DNA of 27,720 nt, taken from Monosiga brevicollis MX1. Taxonomy: Eukaryota > Opisthokonta > Choanoflagellata > Craspedida > Salpingoecidae. Shown one piece after another: positions 1 through 26,371 of this stretch. Within the stretch, counting starts at the first letter, position 1. Each line of letters starts with the position of its first letter. The DNA is taken from assembly GCF_000002865.3 (NCBI RefSeq), contig NW_001865047.1, forward strand, positions 711,938 through 739,657, read 5' to 3'. Both the position numbers and the translations under genes were made by a program. The notes below the pieces were generated by a model, which was not told the origin of the DNA, did not search any database, and was given only the letters and a program-made list of their open reading frames with translations.

Positions 1-135
1 CGTCGTTGTCGTCCCGTTGGCCAGGCCAGCATCCGTCATCGTGTTGGTCGACCCCATCGCCGTGGTTGTAGGCATCGTCGTGGTCGTGGTCGTCGTAGGC
101 ATCGTTGTGGTCGTGGTCGTGGTCGTGGTTGTCAT
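1..135 (-). other. Thr-rich low-complexity linker at the window edge
   Basis: The reading frame continues through runs of ACG/ACC threonine codons (for example MTTTTTTTTTTMP) to the first base of the window. It looks like an O-glycosylated mucin-type spacer after the HYR array. What follows it lies outside the window. Confidence 0.75.
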
Positions 136-3100
136 GGGCTCGGTGTAGTTGACCCAGCTAAAAAGCGGCGCCACCCGATCCAACACGTTAAACTCCACAT
201 ACTGACTCACGTTGTTGCCGCACACATCTGTCACCGTAAAGGTCACAAAGTCCAGGTACGTGGCCGCACATCCCGGCACCCGCGACGTGTTGTCATAGTT
301 GTTCGTCCACGTCACCTCGTCGCCACAAGTGTCATACGCGCTGCCGTTGCCATGCGTCGCAAACCAAGTCGCAAACTGCGCCCCGTTGCCCATGCCGTCG
401 CACTCCACCGTCAAATCACTCGGCGCCGGTGCCAGCGTCGGTGCCTTGGTATCAATCACCTCCAGCACCTGCGTCGCATTGTCCGTGTTCCCGCAGTGAT
501 CCGTCGCCAGCACCCCACGATACAACGTTCGCTCATGCGCGCATCGTCCCGGCACCGCCTCGTCCGAAAACGTCACCACAGGGTCCGTATCGCACACATC
601 CGTCACGTTCATGTCCGACTCGCTCGGGATCGCATCACACTCATAAATCCCGTCCGCGCGCACACCCAGCAGGGCGGGCGGCCGGCGATCCACAATGTCA
701 ATGTACGACTCGATGGCCGCCGTGTTGTTGCAAATGTCCGTCGCGTAAAACGTCACGTTGTGCCGGCCCACCGACCCGCAGCTCACCTGCAGCGCATGCC
801 GGTCAAACGCCCACCGCACCGCGTCGCCGCACTGGTCCTCCGCCGTGCTGTTGCCGTGGATGGCCAGGTATTCGCCGATGATCGTCTCCGTCGAGTTGGG
901 ATCGCACTCCACCGTCAGCGTCTCCGGTCCCACGGGGAAGAGCGGACCCGTCGTGTCCACCACCGTGATGGTCTGCGTCTGCGTCGTGCTCAACCCGCAC
1001 GCGTCCGTCGCCGTCCACGTTCGTTCCACCTGATAGGCGTGACCACAGGCCGCGTCCTCGGGTCGCGCCGCCACCTGCTGCTCAGACACAAACGTCACCG
1101 TCACATTGGTGTCACATGCGTCCCCGGCCCGTACCACCGGCATGTCCGGTAGCTCCTCGTGGCACTCAATCGTCACGTTGGCCGGGAAGTTCTGGAAGTA
1201 CGGCGCCGTCGTGTCCCGGCGCACAATCTTGGCCGTCGTCGTCGTCGTCAGACCGCAGGGATCGTGTGCCGTAAACGTCACCGTCACCTCGCCCGTCTCA
1301 CTGCACGATGCCTCCAGACCCGCCTTGACCTCCTCGAAGTTGTTGCTGTACGTAATCGTGCCACCGCACTGGTCCGAGGCCATGGCCCCGCCCACCTGGT
1401 CCAACCACGGCTGGATCTCGTCCATCTGATCCGTGTTGTCGCACTCGAGCGGTAGGTCACGCGCCTCCACATCAAACACGGGGGCCACGTTGTCCGACAC
1501 CGTGTACGTCACCGACGCCGTGCGCTCGTTGCCGCACGGGTCCGACGTCCACCACGTCCGCACAAACGTGTACTCGTCCACGCACCGTCCGTCCGTCCGC
1601 TCATCCCAGAACGTCACGTTGACGTTGTCGCCGTCACACTGGTCCGTCGCCGTCACCGTCGTTCCGTCCGGTAGGGCATGGCACTCCGCCGGGTAAGCCT
1701 GCTTGGGCGGCAGGCCCACAAACTGAGGTGCCACGTTGTCCGTCGTCGTAAACACGGCCACCGACATGTCATGGCCTCCCTCCGTAAACGTCACCGACAC
1801 GTTGTACATGTGCGCCGCACAGCTGGCCGACGCTCCCTGCCAACCCACGTACGCCGACGAAATGGTCGGCGCACCGCAGTCGTCGTGGTCGTCCGGCTCG
1901 GCCCCAAACTCCTGCGCCGCCCACACACGCTGCTCCACCGTAAACGTGTCGCACGTCGACGTGCTGTCCTGCGGTGGCGTCTCAAACGTGCAGCGCACGC
2001 ACGCCTGGCCCGCTTCCAGACACTTGAACCCCGGCACCACCGTGCAGTTGTCAAAGCACCCGTCGATCCCGCCCAGCACACCGTCGTCGCACTCCTCGCC
2101 GGCCACGTGCAGACCATCACCGCAGATGGGCACGCACGACGGTGGCCCTTGGTTCCACGACCCGTCATTCTGGCACTGTCGCAAGCCGCTGTCCTCATTG
2201 GCCAGCTCAAAGCCCGTGTCACACGTGTACGTCGCCACGCTCGGATACCGATTGTCCAGCGACGTCCGCACTTGCCCGTGCGCAATGGTCGGCGCCACAT
2301 CGCACATGCGTCCAATGCAAGCCGTGGCTCCCGTGCCCAGCGTAACGTAGCCCGTCGGGCATGGCGTGCACGCCTCGTCCTGCGAGCTGCTCTTGTACGT
2401 GTTGATGGCACACTCGGTGCACGCACCCGTACCCGAGTTGTAGCCGTACCCCGCTCGGCACAGGCAGTCCGACTGCGCCTGCTGTCCGTTGGTGCTCGAA
2501 AACGCCGGGCATGGCTGGCACGTGTTGCCTGCACTCTGGCCAACCTTGTATGTGTCGACGCCGCAAGCCCGGCACGTGGGCTCGGGGTTGGTCCAGCTCT
2601 GGTCGGTCTTGCACACCGTCGAAGCTGATCCCACCAGCTCGTAGCCCGCCCCACATTGGAACGTCACCGTGGCCGGGTACCGCGATACCGTGGCACTGAT
2701 CGAACCGTAGGTCGGTGCCACCAACGCGTCACACAGCTTGCCCTGGCATTCCACCTCCGATCCCGTCCATGACGTGTCCGGGTTGCAAGTGCGCGTCGTC
2801 GTTCCGCTCTGACGCTCGTAACCCGCATCGCACGTGTACGTGGCCGTTGAGGGATACTTGTTGTTGTTCGTGGTCGATACGACGCCGTTGGTCGGTGCCG
2901 ATAGTGCTCGGCACGTCTTGGCCACACACGTCGGTGGGTTGGCATTCCAGCTCAACGTCGTGCCCGATGCCACACACGTGGCCGAGCTTGACCCAGACAG
3001 CGTGTAGCCGGCGTTGCATGTGTACGTCAACACGTCGCCCACAATCGGGTTGCTCACCACCGTGGCCACACCAAAGCTGTACGTGGGAACGGCCGGGCAC

Positions 3101-6100
3101 GGCAGCGGCTGGCACGTCGGCGCAGAGCCCGAGAAGGTGCGAGTGGCTTGGCAAGTGCGTGTCGCACTGCCCACCAGTTGGTAGCCGTCGTTGCACGAGT
3201 AGGTAATCGTGTCGCCGTAGTACGTGTTTCCACTGACCCGACCGTTGGCCGGTGCCGTCGCCGAGCCACAGCTCACGCGCGTGCACGTCATGGCCGAGCC
3301 ATCCCACGATACGCCCGAGGACGACGCCACGCAGGCGCGGCTCACATCGCCCGAGGCCCGTTCGTAGCCCGGGTTGCAGCTAGTGCGGATGGCATCGCGT
3401 TGCGTGTGAGGTGGGAACAATAAGTGATAGATGTGTCGCAAGGAAAGAAAAGAAAAGACAAAAGAAAAAACATGGACGGGGCACGCACACACCTGTACTC
3501 GGCAGTGACGGGGTAACGACGTGTCGAGTCCGAGTAGGAGATGGCACCATTGGAGACCGAGCCCAAGGAGGGGCAGGTCAGGCCAACACAGGTTCCAATC
3601 GAGGCGCCGCCACAGCCCGAGCTCGTGTAGCCATTGGGGCAGGCCGGGCAAGTGTAGCATGATGTCGTGAATGCCTGCCATGCATTCCAAGTGCCCATGC
3701 CACCATGCTCGTCATGAGGCCCACAGCATGTAACTCGTACAAAAGCATTTGCAACATGACACGGGCAACACTTACGTTGTCTGGTTGGTATTTGCCAGCA
3801 GGACAGCTCACACACGAACCAGCATTGGTCGTGCCACAGCCGCTTCGGTAGTATCCAGCCGAGCACGCCCCACAGCTTGTGCAAGAAAAGTACTGGTGAC
3901 TCGAGCTCGCCATGTATGTGTTCACAGGGCAGAACTGACACGAGCCCGGCCCAGAGCCACCACCGCATCCCGTGAGGTAGTAGCCCGCAGAGCAGGTTCT
4001 GCAACTGGTGCAGGTGGTGCCACGGTAACCACTCTGAGGCTGATATTGCACCGAGGTACAGGCTGTGCACGACCCAGTCGAGCTACCGCCGCAACCAGTC
4101 TGACGATAGCCAGGGTTGCACGCCGTGCCGCTACTGCTACACGAGTTGCATGTGGTGTAGCGATGGCCCGTGCTGGTCATAAAAGTACCACTAGCGCAGT
4201 TGGTGCAAGTTCCTGCACTCGTCGTGCTGGGGCCCGCCAAATAGGTCCCGGCACCACATGTGTTCCATGGTGAACAGCTCGTGATCCGGTGTGAGCTGCT
4301 ACTAATGTAGGTGGCACCGGCACAGGCCGTGCAAAAGCCGGCTCCGATACGAAGGCTGCCGCTGAGCGTCTCTGTGAAATAGTTTCCGGCGTTGCAGGTG
4401 GTAGCTGCCAAACAGGATGACGTGCGATGGGATGTTGACAACTGGTAAGTGCCAAATGCGCACGCCTAAGATGTGGTGATGCCACGAACAAGCGAGGATG
4501 TGTCAGCGTTTGGGGGGGTTCCAAGGCAACGATGAGCGCGAATGTGAAAGTCAATCGTCCAACGTACCGTGCAACTGGTCCCACTCTGGGAATTGCATGT
4601 ATACCCCGTGCCTTGGCCGCACGTCGGGCAGGATGTGCAAGAAGTCAAGCGATGGCTCGTTTGCGACTGATAGGTGTTGGCTGCGCACGATGTACAAGAG
4701 CCAGCACTGCTGGAACCACACGAGGCCTGATATTGGCCAGCACCACAAACAGTACCGGCGGTCGAACACGACTTGCACGAGCTCTGCCCCGTCGAGGTTT
4801 GGAATGTCCCCTAGACAGCGTTCATAACTGTGTCAGCTTCCAGCTGTGTGCGCGACAGCTAGTTTTGATCGAAAACATACCGAAGCGCAGTCTGTGCAGC
4901 CTGTTGCCATTGCTGAGCTTGAATAAGTTCCCTAAAACGTGTTGAACCATTCAAGTTACCAAATGGATTGTTCGTCACTCGTCGTGTGCGTGCCAAGTAC
5001 GGACCACAGGGCAATTTGTGCATGCTGTGTTCGTGTTCAAAGAGCTTGCGTATTTACCAGCCGTGCATGCTAAACAGGGATAGAGATGAGACTGCGTGTG
5101 CGGCGGCTGTCCAAATACCTTTTCTCAAATGCGCTGGTTGAAAATCGCTTTACGACGCACCTTGGCAACCATCAATCTCGATGTTTGAAGACAGCTTGTA
5201 GTAACCAGCTTGGCATACACACGAGTTGCAGCCTTGGGCATCGCAAGCGCTGGTGCAGAGGTTGCACGTGCCATCACAGTTCTCGTCACAGTGGGAGTCA
5301 TACGCACATCTGCGCAAGTTTTCATCACAACACCAACCCGGCTTCAGTGAGCATAATGACCCTCAAACTCTTTTGATACAAGCCGAGCGAGATTTTCAAG
5401 TTTCCTGACCCATCGCAGTCGCAACCTACGAACCCATGTGCATCAAAAGCAACAAAAATCAAGCCATGAAACCAGGTGCATTCACCAGCGTTGAAATTAA
5501 ACGCAGATATACAACATACCTCCACCCCACCAGCTGTCCTGTAAGCCGTGCGGGTTTCAAATAAAGTAAAAGGCGGCGCGGATGGAGCAGACGATGAGAC
5601 AGTTTTGCTGGCAAGAGGTTGCAACGCAGCTCTGATCTCTGGAGGATGACATCACTTACACAATCGCAAGAGTCGTCACAAGTTTGGACATCACAGCCAG
5701 TTTTGCAGCCCTAGTTGCAAAAAAAAAAGACAAATAATGAGTCAAAACCTTTGGCATGCTAGTGCACAAGACACAAAGTGGAAGGAAGCCGGTCGCCAAG
5801 CCTGAAGCCGGACAAAGACGTACATAATCATCGCAATCATAGCTAGCAGGGCAACCATTGTTGCAGCTCGTCGATGCGCACCCATTGCAATAACCACCCT
5901 TGCTGTTTCCAGCGGGAGTGTATGCAGCATCTCGTCGCTGGCGATATGCAATTGAATACTTCTCCGGGTTTTCGATCAGTCCTCGAATGCTTACGGTCTG
6001 TTGTTGATTATCCTTGCCGTTGTCAGCATCGCAGGATGCAAGCCTCTGGAGCTCCGTCAAGGTTTGAGCCCGAGGCAGGTATGCAACAGCTGTCACTGCG

Positions 6101-7332
6101 ACATGCTGTGTCCAGAGGGAGCGCAGCGAGTAGGGTTGAAATGATGTGATCATGTCTTGTAATTGGGAGCAGTGACCACCGGCCTCAGATGGATCATAAG
6201 CGAGTTGTAGCCAGGGAAGACCGAGGTCTGTCTTGACAACGTCTGACAGAATTGTATGAACAGCTGAGCAGATGTTTGACTGCGACGTCACGCATGCTTG
6301 CTGCACAACGTCTTGCCAAGTGAGGCCATCTCGACCAATCGAGTAGGTCACATGAGCTGAGACTTGGTCTTTATCAGTCGTTGCGTAGTGGATCATTGAC
6401 TTTGGCAGGTACAAAATGTCACCGGGAAGCATTGTGAAAGTGTCACAGACCATATTGTCGATCTGGGCATAGTCAAAGCTAGTGCAACCTACACGTTGTC
6501 CGCGGCAGCAGAACATGAAACTTGTTGGACAGGATCATGGTTTTTTTTTTTTTTTTTTTTCATATCCATATATTTTGCAGTGGCGTACCTTCAACGTGTT
6601 TAATTTGAATTTCATGCAACTGGGCTAGTTCTGCCGGTGAAGCCGAGGGCCAAGTCTGACTACTGTTGAGAGCTTGACATAGGTGCCATTCTTTTTGGCC
6701 AGTGACTTGAACCACAAAAACGTCATAGCTACCATGGCGGAGCACAACGAGGTGAGATACACGGGCGGCAAACGGGTAAGCGGGCAGCACACGCCAGGGG
6801 GCAGAGGCACTGACGGATCCGTGTGTGGCTTCAAGGCATGAGCTTGACCGGCGGAAATATACGCGTGGGCCGTGACCTCGGGAGAGCCAAAGACGTCGCT
6901 GATGAGCATTTCAATTGGCTCTTTACTTACGCTCATGTGCTCGCGCCGAATGACGGCAGATTGGCCAGAGCGATAGAATTGGTCACTGTAGTCCATCCAG
7001 GTGGCGGCCTTGGGGAAGGGGAGCTTGGTGCTGTTGGCGGTCTTGAAGGAAAGAGCACTATCATCGTAGAGCTGCTGATATAGCTCGGTCATGAAGACAT
7101 CAATGTTTTGAAGGTCACCAAACCAGGAATCCAAGGGCATCAAGCTGTCCAGGTGGCGGGAAATGTGCAGGTAGTTGCGACGATAAAAGTTTTTGAAAAA
7201 GGTTGAGGCAGCGTTGGGGCCAACGAGGTCTGCAAGTTGAAACGGGTGAGCATGGTTGGCTGCGGGCATGGCTGAGAGCAAGATGCACAACAGCAAGGTG
7301 GCCAGCGTGGCCGGGTGGCCAGCGGCCGGCAT
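1..7332 (-). CDS. Secreted JmjC-type oxygenase fused to TNFR-like, sushi, DUF4215 and HYR modules (3' end outside window)
   Basis: Partial multi-exon gene, at least 2055 codons. My exons are 7332-6815, 6728-6589, 6488-5824, 5710-5660, 5341-5161, 5069-5005, 4931-4881, 4810-4568, 4465-3776, 3674-3493 and 3379-1 (open at the edge). All junctions keep phase and all introns are GT-AG. The start is the first ATG of the frame; it gives a hydrophobic signal peptide (TLATLLLCILLSAMPAA). Domain order: signal peptide, JmjC/Cupin_4 domain (about residues 30-290), a linker, Cys-rich TNFR/GCC2_GCC3-like repeats (about 415-895), sushi domains, two more Cys-rich repeats, another sushi, a DUF4215-like motif, about six HYR-like modules, then a Thr-rich stretch. 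Expected location is extracellular or secretory lumen. Substrate and partners are unknown, and whether a membrane anchor lies beyond position 1 cannot be seen. The least certain junctions are the acceptor at 5342 and the GTCCGT donor at 5004. Confidence 0.85.
136..2009 (-). other. HYR-like repeat array
   Basis: About six modules of roughly 80-95 residues are each opened by a D-[NTR]-x-x-[AGP]-P-x-[FL] boundary (DNVAPQF, DNVAPVF, DTTAPYF, DTTGPLF, DRRPPAL, DTKAPTL, DRVAPLF). They carry an ECD-type strand, a DxCG turn and a TWTATDACG-like strand. The pattern matches HYR and the related repeats of bacterial gliding/adhesion proteins. A diverged unit (about 1750-2009) precedes them. There is no intron in this stretch. 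The likely role is a rigid extracellular stalk or adhesive arm. Confidence 0.8.
2010..2136 (-). other. DUF4215-like / myxobacterial Cys-rich motif
   Basis: A short module starts CGDGLHVAGEECDDG and continues GGIDGCFDNC and VVPGFKC. This matches the 'CGDG....GEECDDGN..GDGCS..C' pattern of DUF4215 and myxobacterial disulfide repeats. It sits between the last sushi domain and the HYR-like array in the same uninterrupted exon. Such modules are common in bacterial surface proteins and in ciliates, and rarer in animals. Function unknown. Confidence 0.75.
2137..3587 (-). other. Sushi (CCP) domains with two interposed Cys-rich repeats
   Basis: Six CCP-type units can be read, each with four cysteines, a central 'YTCxxGY' motif (YSCNDGYQLVG, YTCNAGYTLSG, YTCDAGYERQSG, FQCGAGYELVG) and a late W..PTC-like end. 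Between the fifth and sixth, at about 2340-2590, are two further TNFR-like repeats (CGVDTYKVGQSAGNTCQPCP and CAINTYKSSSQDEACTPCP). The first CCP is split by the 113-bp intron 3380-3492 and its upstream half shares an exon with a TNFR-like repeat. These modules usually mediate protein or glycan binding. Confidence 0.85.
3588..5863 (-). other. TNFR / ephrin-receptor-like Cys-rich repeat array
   Basis: Exons 3-10 carry Cys-rich repeats of roughly 45 residues, with motifs such as CSAGYYLTGCGG, GSCVSCPAGKYQ and SSSHRITSC. They resemble TNFR/NGFR and GCC2_GCC3 modules of extracellular proteins. The first Cys-rich motif (YCNGCASTSCNNGCP) is in the same uninterrupted exon as the third iron ligand of the JmjC domain (exon 6488-5824), so the two regions belong to one gene without any splicing assumption. 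Exons 7-9 are phase 0 at both ends, which allows repeat gain by exon duplication. Confidence 0.8.
6277..7245 (-). other. JmjC / Cupin_4 oxygenase domain within the large secreted protein
   Basis: Three exons encode a domain laid out like the NO66/MINA53 (Cupin_4) family. It has an N-terminal FFKNFYRRNYLHISRHL segment like the family's 'FF..YW.KKPLLI' element. The metal-binding HxD lies in HALKPHTDPYDVF (H170 and D172), followed by VVQVTGQKEWHLC, and the third ligand is in PGDILYLPKSMIHYAT (H253). HTDP is joined to YDVF by removing an 86-bp intron (6729-6814, donor GTCAGT), which restores the family spacing. Known family members hydroxylate protein side chains using Fe(II) and 2-oxoglutarate. 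The iron triad is directly visible; 2-oxoglutarate binding and activity are inferred. Confidence 0.85.
6541..6560. repeat. T20 homopolymer inside intron 2 of the JmjC-fusion gene
   Basis: An uninterrupted run of twenty T on the plus strand (poly-A in the transcript) lies in the 100-bp intron 6489-6588. Its length is likely to vary between individuals or assemblies. Confidence 0.95.
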
Positions 7333-7884: not shown

Positions 7885-7994
7885 AACACACCCACACACA
7901 CACCCACACACACACACGAACTGACACATACCCATACATTCGTTCACACACACAAACACACACACACACACAAACATACACACACACACACACA
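7885..7994. repeat. Interrupted (CA)n tract
   Basis: CA dinucleotide runs are broken by CCC, AAC and short unique segments, so this is a degenerate microsatellite. It is followed at once by ATGCATGATG and the region leading to the CT tract. Confidence 0.9.
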
Positions 7995-8088
7995 ATGCAT
8001 GATGTCCTCATTCAAACATGAACCCCATACGTGCCCACTCCATTTCTGCAATGTGAAATGTCAACATCAGTTTCTACATCACCTTTTG

Positions 8089-8262
<174 letters not shown>

Positions 8263-8394
8263 TCCACCCCCAATGACAGTTCCACCCACAAATCATAGAG
8301 CTCGTTGTCTCACGTCAGAACCAAGCGCTGACGTACAGACGTAAACGAGGTGGTGGTGTGCTGTGGCTTTGGATCTCGCCAACACACCCGTATT

Positions 8395-9051: not shown

Positions 9052-11269
9052 TTAGGCGGTCCACTTGGCAACGCCCGACTGCTGAGTCACCGTGTCGTCA
9101 AGGGCAGCGTAGGCCACCTTCTCGTTGACAACCTCAATGCCGAGACCGTAGTAGCCCCAGAAGACGTGCGCATAGGGATCCCAGGTCTAAAAGCGCGTCA
9201 AACCAATTCGTTGACATGAGAATAATGTCATCCAAGCAGGCAGACTTTTTGTTTTTTTTTTATGTTCATCAACATCAGGAAGAACACGAGACGAGGGAGC
9301 TCACCTTGCCACCATCGCGGGTCTCAACAAAGTAGGCCTTGGGTGCCAGTTCACCGAGCTCGCCGCCGACAGCCCAGCCCAGGTTCTCGTTGGCAAAACG
9401 GATCTAAGTGCAGCATCATCATGAGCCGCAAGAAGAGAGGGGAAACGACAAAAAAAGGATGAGGGTGCCAAAGAAGCCGGGTGGCAGGGAGGATGCACGA
9501 GATCAGATGGATAAGAATGCGCGTACATCAATCAAAGAGAATCCGCCAATGTTGGAGTCCTGGGAGTAAAAGGTACGGTTCCAGGTCTCGCCGTCGTGGG
9601 TGCACCAAATACCGGCGCCGTCAAAGGGAAGATCCATCGACTCGCCAACAGCGCAGCAGTGCGTCTCAGAGGTGCAGTCAATGCCTATGAGAAGAGCAGA
9701 GAGGATGATGAATGAGGGAGGTGGCTCCATGCCCGTGCACCATGGGCGTGGTTCCGGCGACGAGGCGAGACAAGGGGGACAAACCATTGAAGTAAAAGGT
9801 ATCGTTCTGGGCGAATTGCGTCTTCCAAGTCTTGCCACCATCAACAGTCTGTTAAACGCGGTTGATTCGTGGATGAACACTTGATGCAAGCATGGTCATG
9901 GACATTTAACCAAGGCAACTGGCCAAGAACAGCGCACGCAAGACCTACCTTGATCAGCTGAGCCTTGTAGCTGCCGGTGGTGTTTTGAAGACGGTGGGCC
10001 CCAAGGTCCTTGCGCCAGCGGCCAAATTCATCCTGGAAGACAGACTTGCGACCACGAGCAGCCATCTTGTCCCCAGGGAGGCGGGCGCGAAGGGCAGCAG
10101 GCAAGTCATCTTGGTCGTCATCCTGCTCCTGCTGGGGGAACTCACCAGCGGTGATGTCTGGGGAAGCGCACCAGCAAGCCAGATGAGTGTGGGGCGTGGG
10201 GAAATGCGGGAAAGCGTAACGGTAAGCTCAATGCAACGTACACCAAGTGTTTTCCGAGGGATAGGCGCCGTAGCGGGCAAAGGTGAAGAGCTCGGGAGCA
10301 GGGCGCTGCTCAAAGAGAACGCCACCATCGTGGGTGATGGCAGCACCACCATAGCCAAAGAAAGAGTTGGCACAGCCAAAGCGCTCGCCGTCGTTGTCAG
10401 TGGAGATGTAGCGGATGGACTGGGAGTGACCGCCACCGAGCGAGTCGTTGAAAGTGCGGCCATCGTCCTTGGAGTAGAGCTCGTTGAAAACTAATGGACA
10501 TATCATTAAATGATGAAGAAGAAGAAGATCAAGAGTGAGAATGGGCAAGATCAAAATCTGAGAGGAATGCATGTGTTTGTGTTTGTGTTTGGGCGAAGCA
10601 GGTCCAGTAGCCTCCGCCTTGGCCTTGGCTTTGGCCTTGTTTTCGTCTCCATGCAAAATCACAAAAAAATCGTACCAGCGGTCACAATGACAGTGTTCTC
10701 CGAGCATTCGCAGTCGAAGAGCAGCAGGTCGTTGTTCAGGTTGCCCTGAGTCGAGTTCCAGGTGTGGCCACCATCAACCGTGTGCAAGATCTCGTTACCA
10801 AGACCGTTGACGGCGCCAGCCAGAAAGCCTAAAACAGAGGAGACGACACTAGGGTTCAGCAAGGTACGAGTCCGCCCAAGGACCAGCTGCCAGATTGTCT
10901 CCACAACAAGATAAACACGACCAAAGACAAAATGACGACGAAGAAACAGGGCGGTCGGGGGCCATCAACAACACTGCACCAGGCAGTCCGATCTTCAATC
11001 CCCGATTCCCGATTCCCTGATCCTGCCCTGATGCGCCTCGCTGATCAGCGCCGATCGCAGCGATCGCAGATCCACTGATATCGGCGGGGCCAGAAAAAAC
11101 AAAAACAAAAAAGAGAGAGAGGGAACCGCGATCGCGCACCTTCATCCTCGTTCTTGAAGGTGATACCAATGTTAATGGTCAAGCCAGGGTTGGAGATGAT
11201 CTCCCACTTGCCCTCTTGGCCCAGGGCCAGGGCCGTCAAGGCCAAAACGGCAGCGATCCGCAACAACAT
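9052..11269 (-). CDS. Secreted Asp-box (BNR / Ycf48-like) beta-propeller protein
   Basis: Eight exons: 11269-11140, 10828-10676, 10490-10242, 10157-9949, 9848-9785, 9684-9527, 9403-9305 and 9186-9052. They total 1197 nt, 398 residues, and every junction is in phase. It begins with a signal peptide (MLLRIAAVLALTALALGQ). Asp-box motifs repeat along the chain: TVDGGHTW, SKDDGRTF, THDGG, TVDGGKTW, THDGETW and TRDGGKTW. The last is interrupted exactly between Lys and Thr by the intron 9187-9304. The layout resembles Ycf48/photosystem-assembly-factor-like propellers, but the signal peptide points to the secretory pathway, so a photosynthetic role is not implied. Exon 4 inserts a charged segment of about 65 residues (QQEQDDDQDD, then a basic stretch) between blades. 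The ligand is unknown; a sialidase-like active site was not recognised. Confidence 0.85.
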
Positions 11270-16227: not shown

Positions 16228-17480
16228 ATGATGATGCATGCGGCACTCATCCCCTGGTTGATCGGGGCCCTGTGCCTGGCCGTTCACGTGTACTCGCAGC
16301 AAGTGCCCAGCTTGACGGTGGACGAGGATGGCACGCTGCACATCAACTCGACCAAGCGCGTCATTGTCAATGGAATCGACGTGGCCGAGGCCGGCACCAC
16401 ACTCCTTGATTTCCTCGAGAACAACCCCAAAAAGTCGTCTCGACATGAGCCATGTACGCATATTCGGTCGTGGGTGCCGACCTGGACCGGGATGGCCATG
16501 TGGACATTGTGAGCGCGAGTCGGAACGATGACAAGCTGGCTTGGTACAAAAACCTTGGCAATGGTCAGTTTTCCGACGCGATCAACATTTCCCTCGAGGT
16601 TGATGGCGCCGTGTCGGTTCATACGGCCGATTTGGATGACGACGGAGACCTGGATGTCCTTGCGTTTGGAAGCTCCAATAACTCCATCGTTTGGTTTGAA
16701 AATGACGGTCAAGGCGGTTTCATGATCAGCCACGTTATCGACAGCAATGCCCCGGGTGCAACCGATGTCATCGCCGCCGATCTTGACGACGATGGCGCCC
16801 TCGACGTTGTTGCTGCCGTGAGTTTGGAGAACAAAGTGGCTTGGTACCGCAATCTGGGTGGGTCCTTTTCAACGCAGCAAGTCATTTCCACCAACGTCCA
16901 GGATGCCCGTGCAGTGTATGCTGCGGATTTGAGCGGCGATGGGCGCTTAGACGTCCTCGGCGTGAGCGACAACAGCGACTATGTCTGCTGGTTTCGTAAC
17001 ATTGACGGATCCACTTTTGCTGCACGTGAGCTCATTGCCACCAACATCATAGACCCGCGTGACGTGTACGCCGCTGATCTCGATGAAGATGGTGATGTGG
17101 ATGTGTTGTCTGCCAGTCTGGCAGATGGCACCATCGCCTGGTACCGCAATGATGGTGATGGCAACTTCACCAAACGCATCATCACAACGTCGGCTTCTGG
17201 GGCGCATGCCGTGCGCGCGGCCGACGTCGACGCGGATGGCCATCTCGATGTCCTAAGTGCCAGTGCATATGCCAATGCCATTGCCTGGTATCGCGGCAAT
17301 GGTCGGGGCGACTTTTCAGAGCCCATTCCCATCACCACGAACGCTCAACGCGCCTACAGCGTCGAGACGGCCGACCTCGACGGCGATGGAGCCCTCGACG
17401 TCCTTAGCGCCAGTGCCTACGATCACAAGATTGCCTGGTACCGCAACGATCAATGGGCCTGGCGAGCTCGCTTTTACTAG
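16228..17480 (+). pseudogene. Secreted FG-GAP/VCBS repeat protein, reading frame broken
   Basis: The first frame starts at 16228 with a signal peptide (LIPWLIGALCLAVHVYSQQ) and runs about 75 residues (VDEDGTLHINSTKRVIVNG) before going astray. From 16452 a second frame runs 342 codons to TAG at 17478-17480. It carries about seven FG-GAP repeats, each with a calcium-binding-like loop (DLDRDGHVDI, DLDDDGDLDV, DLDEDGDVDV, DVDADGHLDV, DLDGDGALDV) and an [IL]AWYRN strand. No GT-AG intron with a matching phase can join the frames. Just before 16452 the second frame reads QKVVST, stop TGA, AMYAYSVVGADLD, which aligns with a normal repeat start. So the lesion is a one-base deletion near 16446-16452, or a frame change plus a nonsense codon, or a sequencing error. 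No introns. If intact it would be a secreted propeller resembling bacterial ones. Confidence 0.65.

Positions 17481-21159: not shown

Positions 21160-26371
<5,212 letters not shown>

Follow-up and report, generated by a model that had tools for sequence, protein, structure and literature searches.

A family of predicted Monosiga brevicollis receptors with a JmjC oxygenase-type head

JmjC oxygenases are nuclear, cytosolic or, rarely, ER proteins. What, then, could such a domain do at the tip of a long extracellular chain? The question is raised by one gene within a 27,720-nucleotide stretch of the Monosiga brevicollis MX1 genome (contig NW_001865047.1, positions 711,938 to 739,657 of the forward strand; hereafter the window). 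An earlier note on this DNA had claimed that the gene joins a signal peptide and a JmjC domain to an adhesive ectodomain within unbroken exons, and had suggested a hydroxylase acting in the secretory pathway or at the surface. A JmjC oxygenase as the head of a receptor family suggests a new connection between the chemistry of oxygen and signalling at the cell surface; the setting is a close unicellular relative of animals, and one family member, RTKB2, is ready for experiment.

Structure of the window gene

The gene lies on the minus strand with its ATG at position 7332, and its 13 exons encode 2054 amino acids with no stop before the window edge (Table 1); the sequence past that edge, downstream of the gene (C48:702000-711937), consists entirely of N. 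The gene start, the exon borders that had been named and the domain order all proved correct: a signal peptide is followed by a JmjC domain of the MINA/NO66 type and then by TNFR/ephrin-receptor-like, sushi, DUF4215-like and HYR modules. JmjC_2 (2e-19; 69.8 bits against a cut-off of 22), Cupin_8 (1.4e-08), Sushi (1.1e-46, five stretches) and Ephrin_rec_like (9.5e-06) exceeded their Pfam cut-offs, and TNFR_c6 (26.4 against 29.4 bits; 4465-3777), DUF4215 (25.3 against 27) and HYR_4C (24.1 against 27) fell slightly below theirs. HYR_4C passes the cut-off in the C17 paralogue (42.3 bits), as DUF4215 does in the relative L030 (29.0 bits). The Pfam search returned no match between the JmjC domain and the Cys-rich part, the place of the dimerisation/winged-helix region of MINA/NO66.

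Table 1. Features of the JmjC gene, in window positions
Feature	Position	Strand	Evidence or remark
Exons 1-7	7332-6815, 6728-6589, 6488-5824, 5710-5660, 5538-5520, 5425-5410, 5309-5161	minus	GT..AG borders
Exons 8-13	5069-5008, 4931-4881, 4810-4568, 4465-3776, 3674-3493, 3379-2	minus	GT..AG borders
Signal-peptide-like N-terminus, MPAAGHPATLATLLLCILLSAMPAANHA	7249..7332	minus	hydrophobicity judged by eye
JmjC_2 (Cupin_4) domain, exons 1-3	6331..6897	minus	Pfam 2e-19
HTD motif of the JmjC domain	6825-6817	minus	sequence motif
Presumed 2OG lysine (GQKEW) of the JmjC domain	6694-6692	minus	sequence motif
Third iron His (LPKSMIH) of the JmjC domain	6390-6388	minus	sequence motif
Furin-type convertase site RQRR, border of JmjC head and Cys-rich stalk	5932..5943	minus	only RX[KR]R in 2054 aa
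Cys-rich TNFR/ephrin-receptor-like repeats, from the last part of exon 3 through exon 11	3776..5889	minus	Pfam and reading of exons
Exon uniting a TNFR-like repeat with the first sushi	3493..3674	minus	182-nt exon also in the C17 paralogue
Large exon running off the window: sushi, Ephrin_rec_like, DUF4215-like, HYR, Thr-rich	2..3379	minus	
Sushi repeats in the large exon	best 3270-3112	minus	Pfam
Ephrin_rec_like in the large exon	2451-2323	minus	Pfam
DUF4215-like in the large exon	2178-2044	minus	Pfam, under cut-off
HYR region in the large exon	about 1728-168, best HYR_4C 1188-961	minus	Pfam, under cut-off
Thr-rich linker in the large exon	138-2	minus	

The unbroken-exon fusion of head and stalk was confirmed for exon 6488-5824, in which the coding sequence runs unbroken from the third iron histidine into the first Cys-rich repeat. 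Corresponding exons unite the same two elements in C17 (665 nt) and in L030 and L041 (668 nt each), and at the L032 locus a single open exon of 3.9 kb holds the 3' part of the JmjC domain together with 10 Ephrin_rec_like and 7 TNFR stretches.

The C17 paralogue, found by a DNA search of the genome, is readable to its end (3472 aa) and has an exon plan near that of the window gene (exons of 140, 665, 243, 690 and 182 nt), with one window-gene intron absent. Its C-terminal part consists of a transmembrane helix, VVLVAIVIIFVVRRRR, followed by a tyrosine-rich tail that carries NPLY and several acidic tyrosine sites and no kinase. Judged by this paralogue, the window gene very probably encodes a receptor as well, with a helix and a tyrosine tail of its own. 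L030 (C35), about half identical, likewise has a tyrosine tail without a kinase, and the stretch RTGVINPLYG is common to both tails.

The two paralogues differ unevenly along their length. Over residues 29-300, 157 of 271 positions are identical and synonymous change in the heads is saturated; over residues ~930-2000 the proteins are nearly identical, with dS of 0.005-0.019. The switch spans residues 760-930, encoded by exons 4465-3776 and 3674-3493 (window 2-4465 compared with C17 L008/L009). The pattern probably reflects gene conversion confined to the stalk.

The family in the genome

Run over the genome, the JmjC_2 profile gave 43 matches at about 32 loci. Twenty of these were fetched, 15 with an ectodomain-type head and five without (L022, L024, L027, L035 and L039); adding C17, L041 and the window gene to the 15 gives the 18 loci read here. 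Four further loci (C44:982083, C28:277595, C34:180795 and C18:205373) belong by head similarity only, and six JmjC_2 loci (C54:464714, C56:446445, C48:864770, C25:374577, C51:1150380 and C55:892192) lie outside the classification. Gene models were made with a small home-made predictor trained on these genes, and small exons are therefore uncertain. Among the 13 heads that were aligned, the lowest identity to the window head is 31%.

Two of the genes, L025 and L026 (C41), lie about 11 kb apart and have identical JmjC heads, which suggests a recent duplication or conversion. L022 (C39:398800-408600), used as outgroup, is a MINA/NO66-like intracellular JmjC gene lacking the four-cysteine pattern described below. 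A profile of 13 rows was also used to look for relatives of the head in prokaryotes and viruses; this search, a weak one because it scanned with a single pattern, confirmed none (9 and 4 pattern matches, 0 by tblastn).

Conservation of the head

Three elements are kept at all 18 loci: HTD, the G/NxKxW lysine and the third histidine (PK/PR..[IV]H). The lysine, which by comparison with MINA we take to be the 2-oxoglutarate (2OG) ligand, stands in a GxKxW context, or NxKxW in L025 and L026. Four cysteines are invariant across the 13 aligned heads and were found at all 18 loci (one of those in L041 by eye, outside the pattern); three of them have no counterpart in the intracellular L022. The closest PDB structures to the window head are MINA (1.5e-08, or 2.6e-19 with the family profile) and NO66. 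In 13 of 13 aligned heads a histidine stands where MINA has an asparagine two residues before its tyrosine (NVY), and because of this substitution the geometry of substrate or 2OG may differ from that in MINA. Signal-peptide-like starts, judged by eye from hydrophobicity and in several cases placed at a methionine other than that of the model, are present at 17 of the 18 loci, the start of L033 being ambiguous.

The head has changed under constraint. Its dN/dS is 0.13 between the window gene and C17 (a rough value, as dS is saturated) and 0.22 between C17 and L030 (where dS is high); for L036 and L037, residues 150-300 gave 0.09 at a dS of 0.65, the lowest among the six segments of that pair. 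The head is not always the most constrained part: residues 641-760 reached 0.09 between the window gene and C17, and the C17/L030 tail stood at 0.20 against 0.22 for the head. The iron triad is kept in L034 and L041 despite the loss of catalytic residues from their kinase domains (see below), and a triad that outlasts kinase activity suggests that the chemistry of the head is needed.

A secretory-pathway JmjC oxygenase joined to an adhesive ectodomain is borne out at the level of sequence, and since the residues for iron and, presumably, 2OG have been conserved, a hydroxylase working in the lumen or at the surface was soundly proposed in the earlier note. The receptor type, the family, its kinase and pseudokinase members and the convertase site go beyond that reading, coming from outside the window or from comparison.

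A putative convertase site between head and stalk

RX[KR]R occurs within 30 residues before the first stalk cysteine in 11 of the 17 models with a definable stalk start, among them the window gene (RQRR) and RTKB2 (RKRR). The chance expectation is 0.5% per stretch, only six further occurrences lie elsewhere in the 17 models (about 36,000 aa), and across 2000 shuffles of the linkers the motif appeared at no more than 3 of 17 loci. The 11 cases are not independent, because the loci are related, but head identities to the window gene go down to 31%. Of the six models without the full motif, C17, L021 and L023 retain a dibasic pair and L020, L028 and L037 lack even that. L037 was counted as a miss; its close relative L038 has the site, and the absence from the L037 model is probably a model error. 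L034 has RSRR, but the start of its stalk cysteines is not definable and it stands outside the 17. Matches to the P_proprotein (kexin/furin) domain were found at three loci in the genome, the best at 67 bits.

Intracellular regions and kinases

A transmembrane helix was found at 12 of the 18 loci. It was not seen in the window gene, which runs into N, or in L029, over half of which is N; in L025, L026, L028 and L032 no helix could be assigned within the stretch fetched. What follows the helix varies. L020, L021 and L023 have short tails, and C17, L030, L031, L033 and L037 (the last cut by N) have long kinase-less tails with 7 to 25 tyrosines, mostly placed after acidic residues. NPx[YF] is present in all five long tails and arose in 0.02 to 0.08 of shuffles of each; these are not five independent cases, because the loci are related. 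A Monosiga kinase with a PTB domain is described as binding NPXY-type peptides (PMC3082566).

Kinase-like domains are present at four loci. L036 and L038 have intact motifs (Pfam PK_Tyr_Ser-Thr 6e-34 and 3e-33; HRDLAARN and DFG) and are identical at 100 of 138 positions over part of the N-lobe; L034 and L041 are pseudokinases, reading HGYLCAAN (in frames read directly) and VSALSGRN at the catalytic motif. Signal peptide, one helix and a catalytically intact tyrosine kinase occur together in L036 and L038 only. In L038 the HYR region, helix and kinase start lie within one open frame of 906 codons, and in L041 a Cys repeat, the helix and the kinase start share one open exon; this L041 exon gave no kinase match in Pfam, though the kinase region of L041 is matched in a genome-wide search. 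From JmjC domain to kinase, the L036 and L038 models run through predicted small exons, some of them equal in length in both genes (71, 39, 170 and 147 nt), and the link between JmjC domain and kinase is for that reason less secure than the link between JmjC domain and Cys-rich part.

In a tree of the heads the loci with kinase-like domains occupy two separate positions, and L037, which has no kinase, is placed between L036 and L038; most forks are below full support. The ectodomains of L037 (C55) and L038 (C38) are closely similar (dN 0 to 0.16 by segment), and their intracellular parts differ, a kinase-less tyrosine tail in L037 versus a tyrosine kinase in L038, as if one type of head served paired receptors, one active and the other a decoy or adaptor.

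L036 and RTKB2

Two RM2 peptides of M. brevicollis RTKB2, given in the available part of the published text (PMC3584944), were back-translated without their first residue and searched in the genome. Each pattern had exactly one match, at C51:10545-10570 and 10320-10345 on the minus strand, and the reversed control had 0. The first peptide is encoded in full (SEEVYGAVVD) within L036, in frame with the kinase C-lobe and RM2-like repeats; the second is 225 nt (75 codons) downstream of it, outside the sequence that was fetched. As both map singly at or directly behind L036, we take them to show that L036 is RTKB2, a receptor tyrosine kinase previously studied in vitro.

The available text of that paper lists Cys, HYR, SCR, EGF, TM, TK and RM2 as the domains of RTKB2 (PMC3584944); Cys-rich, Ig/HYR-type and EGF modules, helix, kinase and RM2-like repeats are common to RTKB2 and L036. 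L036 begins in addition with a signal peptide and a JmjC domain, which that list lacks, and the word JmjC is absent from the text as available. The L036 kinase comes about 110 residues later than published (glycine loop at residue 1573, against a construct of 1450-1724), an offset which implies that either our model or the published one is wrong somewhere upstream of the kinase.

Discussion

The head resembles MINA53/NO66 (RIOX) in its JmjC_2 profile, HxD...H triad, presumed 2OG lysine and closest PDB chains. MINA53 and NO66 are nuclear or nucleolar; they have no signal peptide, stalk or helix, and the four cysteines of the family are absent from the aligned stretch of MINA. ASPH, a 2OG oxygenase of the ER lumen that acts on EGF repeats of receptors, offers a functional likeness, but it is a separate membrane enzyme, works in trans and belongs to another branch of the superfamily. 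JMJD8 has both a JmjC domain and a signal peptide and resides in the ER lumen (PMC5684140); it consists of the JmjC domain only, without stalk or signalling tail, whereas the window gene continues for more than 1600 ectodomain residues. RTKC8 and other choanoflagellate receptor tyrosine kinases likewise combine a Cys-rich and HYR stalk, one helix and a tyrosine kinase; RTKC8 has a CAP-Gly tail, and the accessible text mentions a JmjC head nowhere (0 occurrences; PMC10263333). The window gene is a relative of RTKB2 whose own paralogue, C17, lacks a kinase. Among the titles and abstract openings that pair choanoflagellates or Monosiga with JmjC or jumonji, a coverage that excludes Manning 2008 and King 2008, there was no receptor paper, and the word JmjC was not found in PMC8662651, PMC10263333 or PMC4054682. 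Automatic annotation of these proteins presumably exists.

Our preferred reading, to which we give a probability of roughly 60%, is that M. brevicollis has a family of convertase-processed type I receptors with an Fe(II)/2OG oxygenase as head. The family, its architecture, the conservation of residues, the selection, the RTKB2 match and the position of the cleavage site are read from sequence, and the mechanism would build on them as follows. The signal peptide would route the chain into the secretory pathway, where the MINA/NO66-like head would fold with its four extra cysteines; a furin-like convertase would cut the head from the Cys-rich/sushi/HYR stalk at RX[K/R]R, and one helix would anchor the stalk in the membrane. 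Inside the cell, phosphotyrosine signalling would proceed through NPxY/F and acidic tyrosine sites in the kinase-less members and through the tyrosine kinase in RTKB2 and L038. The head, if an active hydroxylase, would work in the ER or Golgi lumen or just outside the cell, on its own stalk or a close partner, and receptor maturation or ligand handling would then depend on O2, iron and 2OG.

These steps differ in strength. That the head is catalytic is likely, judging from its residues, and that it is cut from the stalk is only a little less so. For action on stalk or partner, whether in the lumen or at the cell surface, the chances are about even, with the surface the harder place of the two because extracellular 2OG and Fe(II) are scarce; that the head acts in cis rather than in trans is doubtful. 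A bolder proposal, a new class of O2-, iron- and 2OG-dependent receptors in which a convertase-cut catalytic JmjC head licenses or triggers tyrosine-kinase signalling, RTKB2 included, is offered tentatively, with the odds against it. RTKB2 reagents are at hand (kinase, tail peptides, partial cDNA clones), and simple mutants of the convertase site and of the conserved iron triad could be used to probe O2/2OG gating of phosphotyrosine signalling.

The conserved head could instead be a sensor whose ligand is iron, 2OG or a related dicarboxylate, or a peptide derived from prey, and which passes a conformational signal to kinase or tail. Its position farthest from the membrane is the one that ligand domains of receptor tyrosine kinases usually take, and it is the constant part of proteins that differ inside the cell, where some have a kinase, some a pseudokinase and some a tyrosine tail. 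In a pure binder, however, at least one of 18 diverged copies should have lost a metal ligand, and none has; nor is direct coupling by mechanical means favoured by a cut between head and stalk, except where the head remains attached. We consider a sensor without enzymatic activity unlikely.

The same cut could point to a precursor from which the JmjC head is set free as a soluble, secreted oxygenase, directed at prey bacteria or matrix, and which leaves the stalk as an independent adhesion receptor. In favour of this, 11 of 17 models have the convertase consensus where head and stalk meet, several of them with no other in about 2000 aa; but a Cys-rich start can be defined after the head in 17 of 18 models, and a free enzyme needs no such constant fusion. 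We rate this possibility as low as that of the sensor, and retain the convertase-processed receptor with an oxygenase head.

A gene-model artefact that joins a JmjC gene to an adjoining adhesion gene is very improbable: several small exons are indeed predicted only, chiefly between JmjC domain and kinase in L036 and L038, but for the border of JmjC domain and Cys-rich part the artefact is already contradicted by the one open exon uniting third iron histidine and first Cys repeat at four loci and by the 3.9-kb exon of L032. Least probable of all is an ordinary nuclear ribosomal oxygenase or histone demethylase of the MINA/NO66 type, for although MINA and NO66 are the closest solved structures, the heads come with signal-peptide-like starts, four extra cysteines, extracellular modules and helices, and the genome has a separate MINA/NO66-like gene, L022, without the four-cysteine pattern. 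The paralogues, the lumenal signs and the size of the family led us to reject a fusion by chance splicing, a demethylase of the nucleus and an isolated, aberrant gene.

Other features of the window

Upstream of the JmjC gene, long GA and GT simple repeats occupy window positions 7890-8270. An open frame on the plus strand at 16449-17477 contains seven FG-GAP_3 stretches (1.3e-72), and an open frame on the minus strand at 22227-22799 has at its end the first part of a protein tyrosine phosphatase domain (4e-11).
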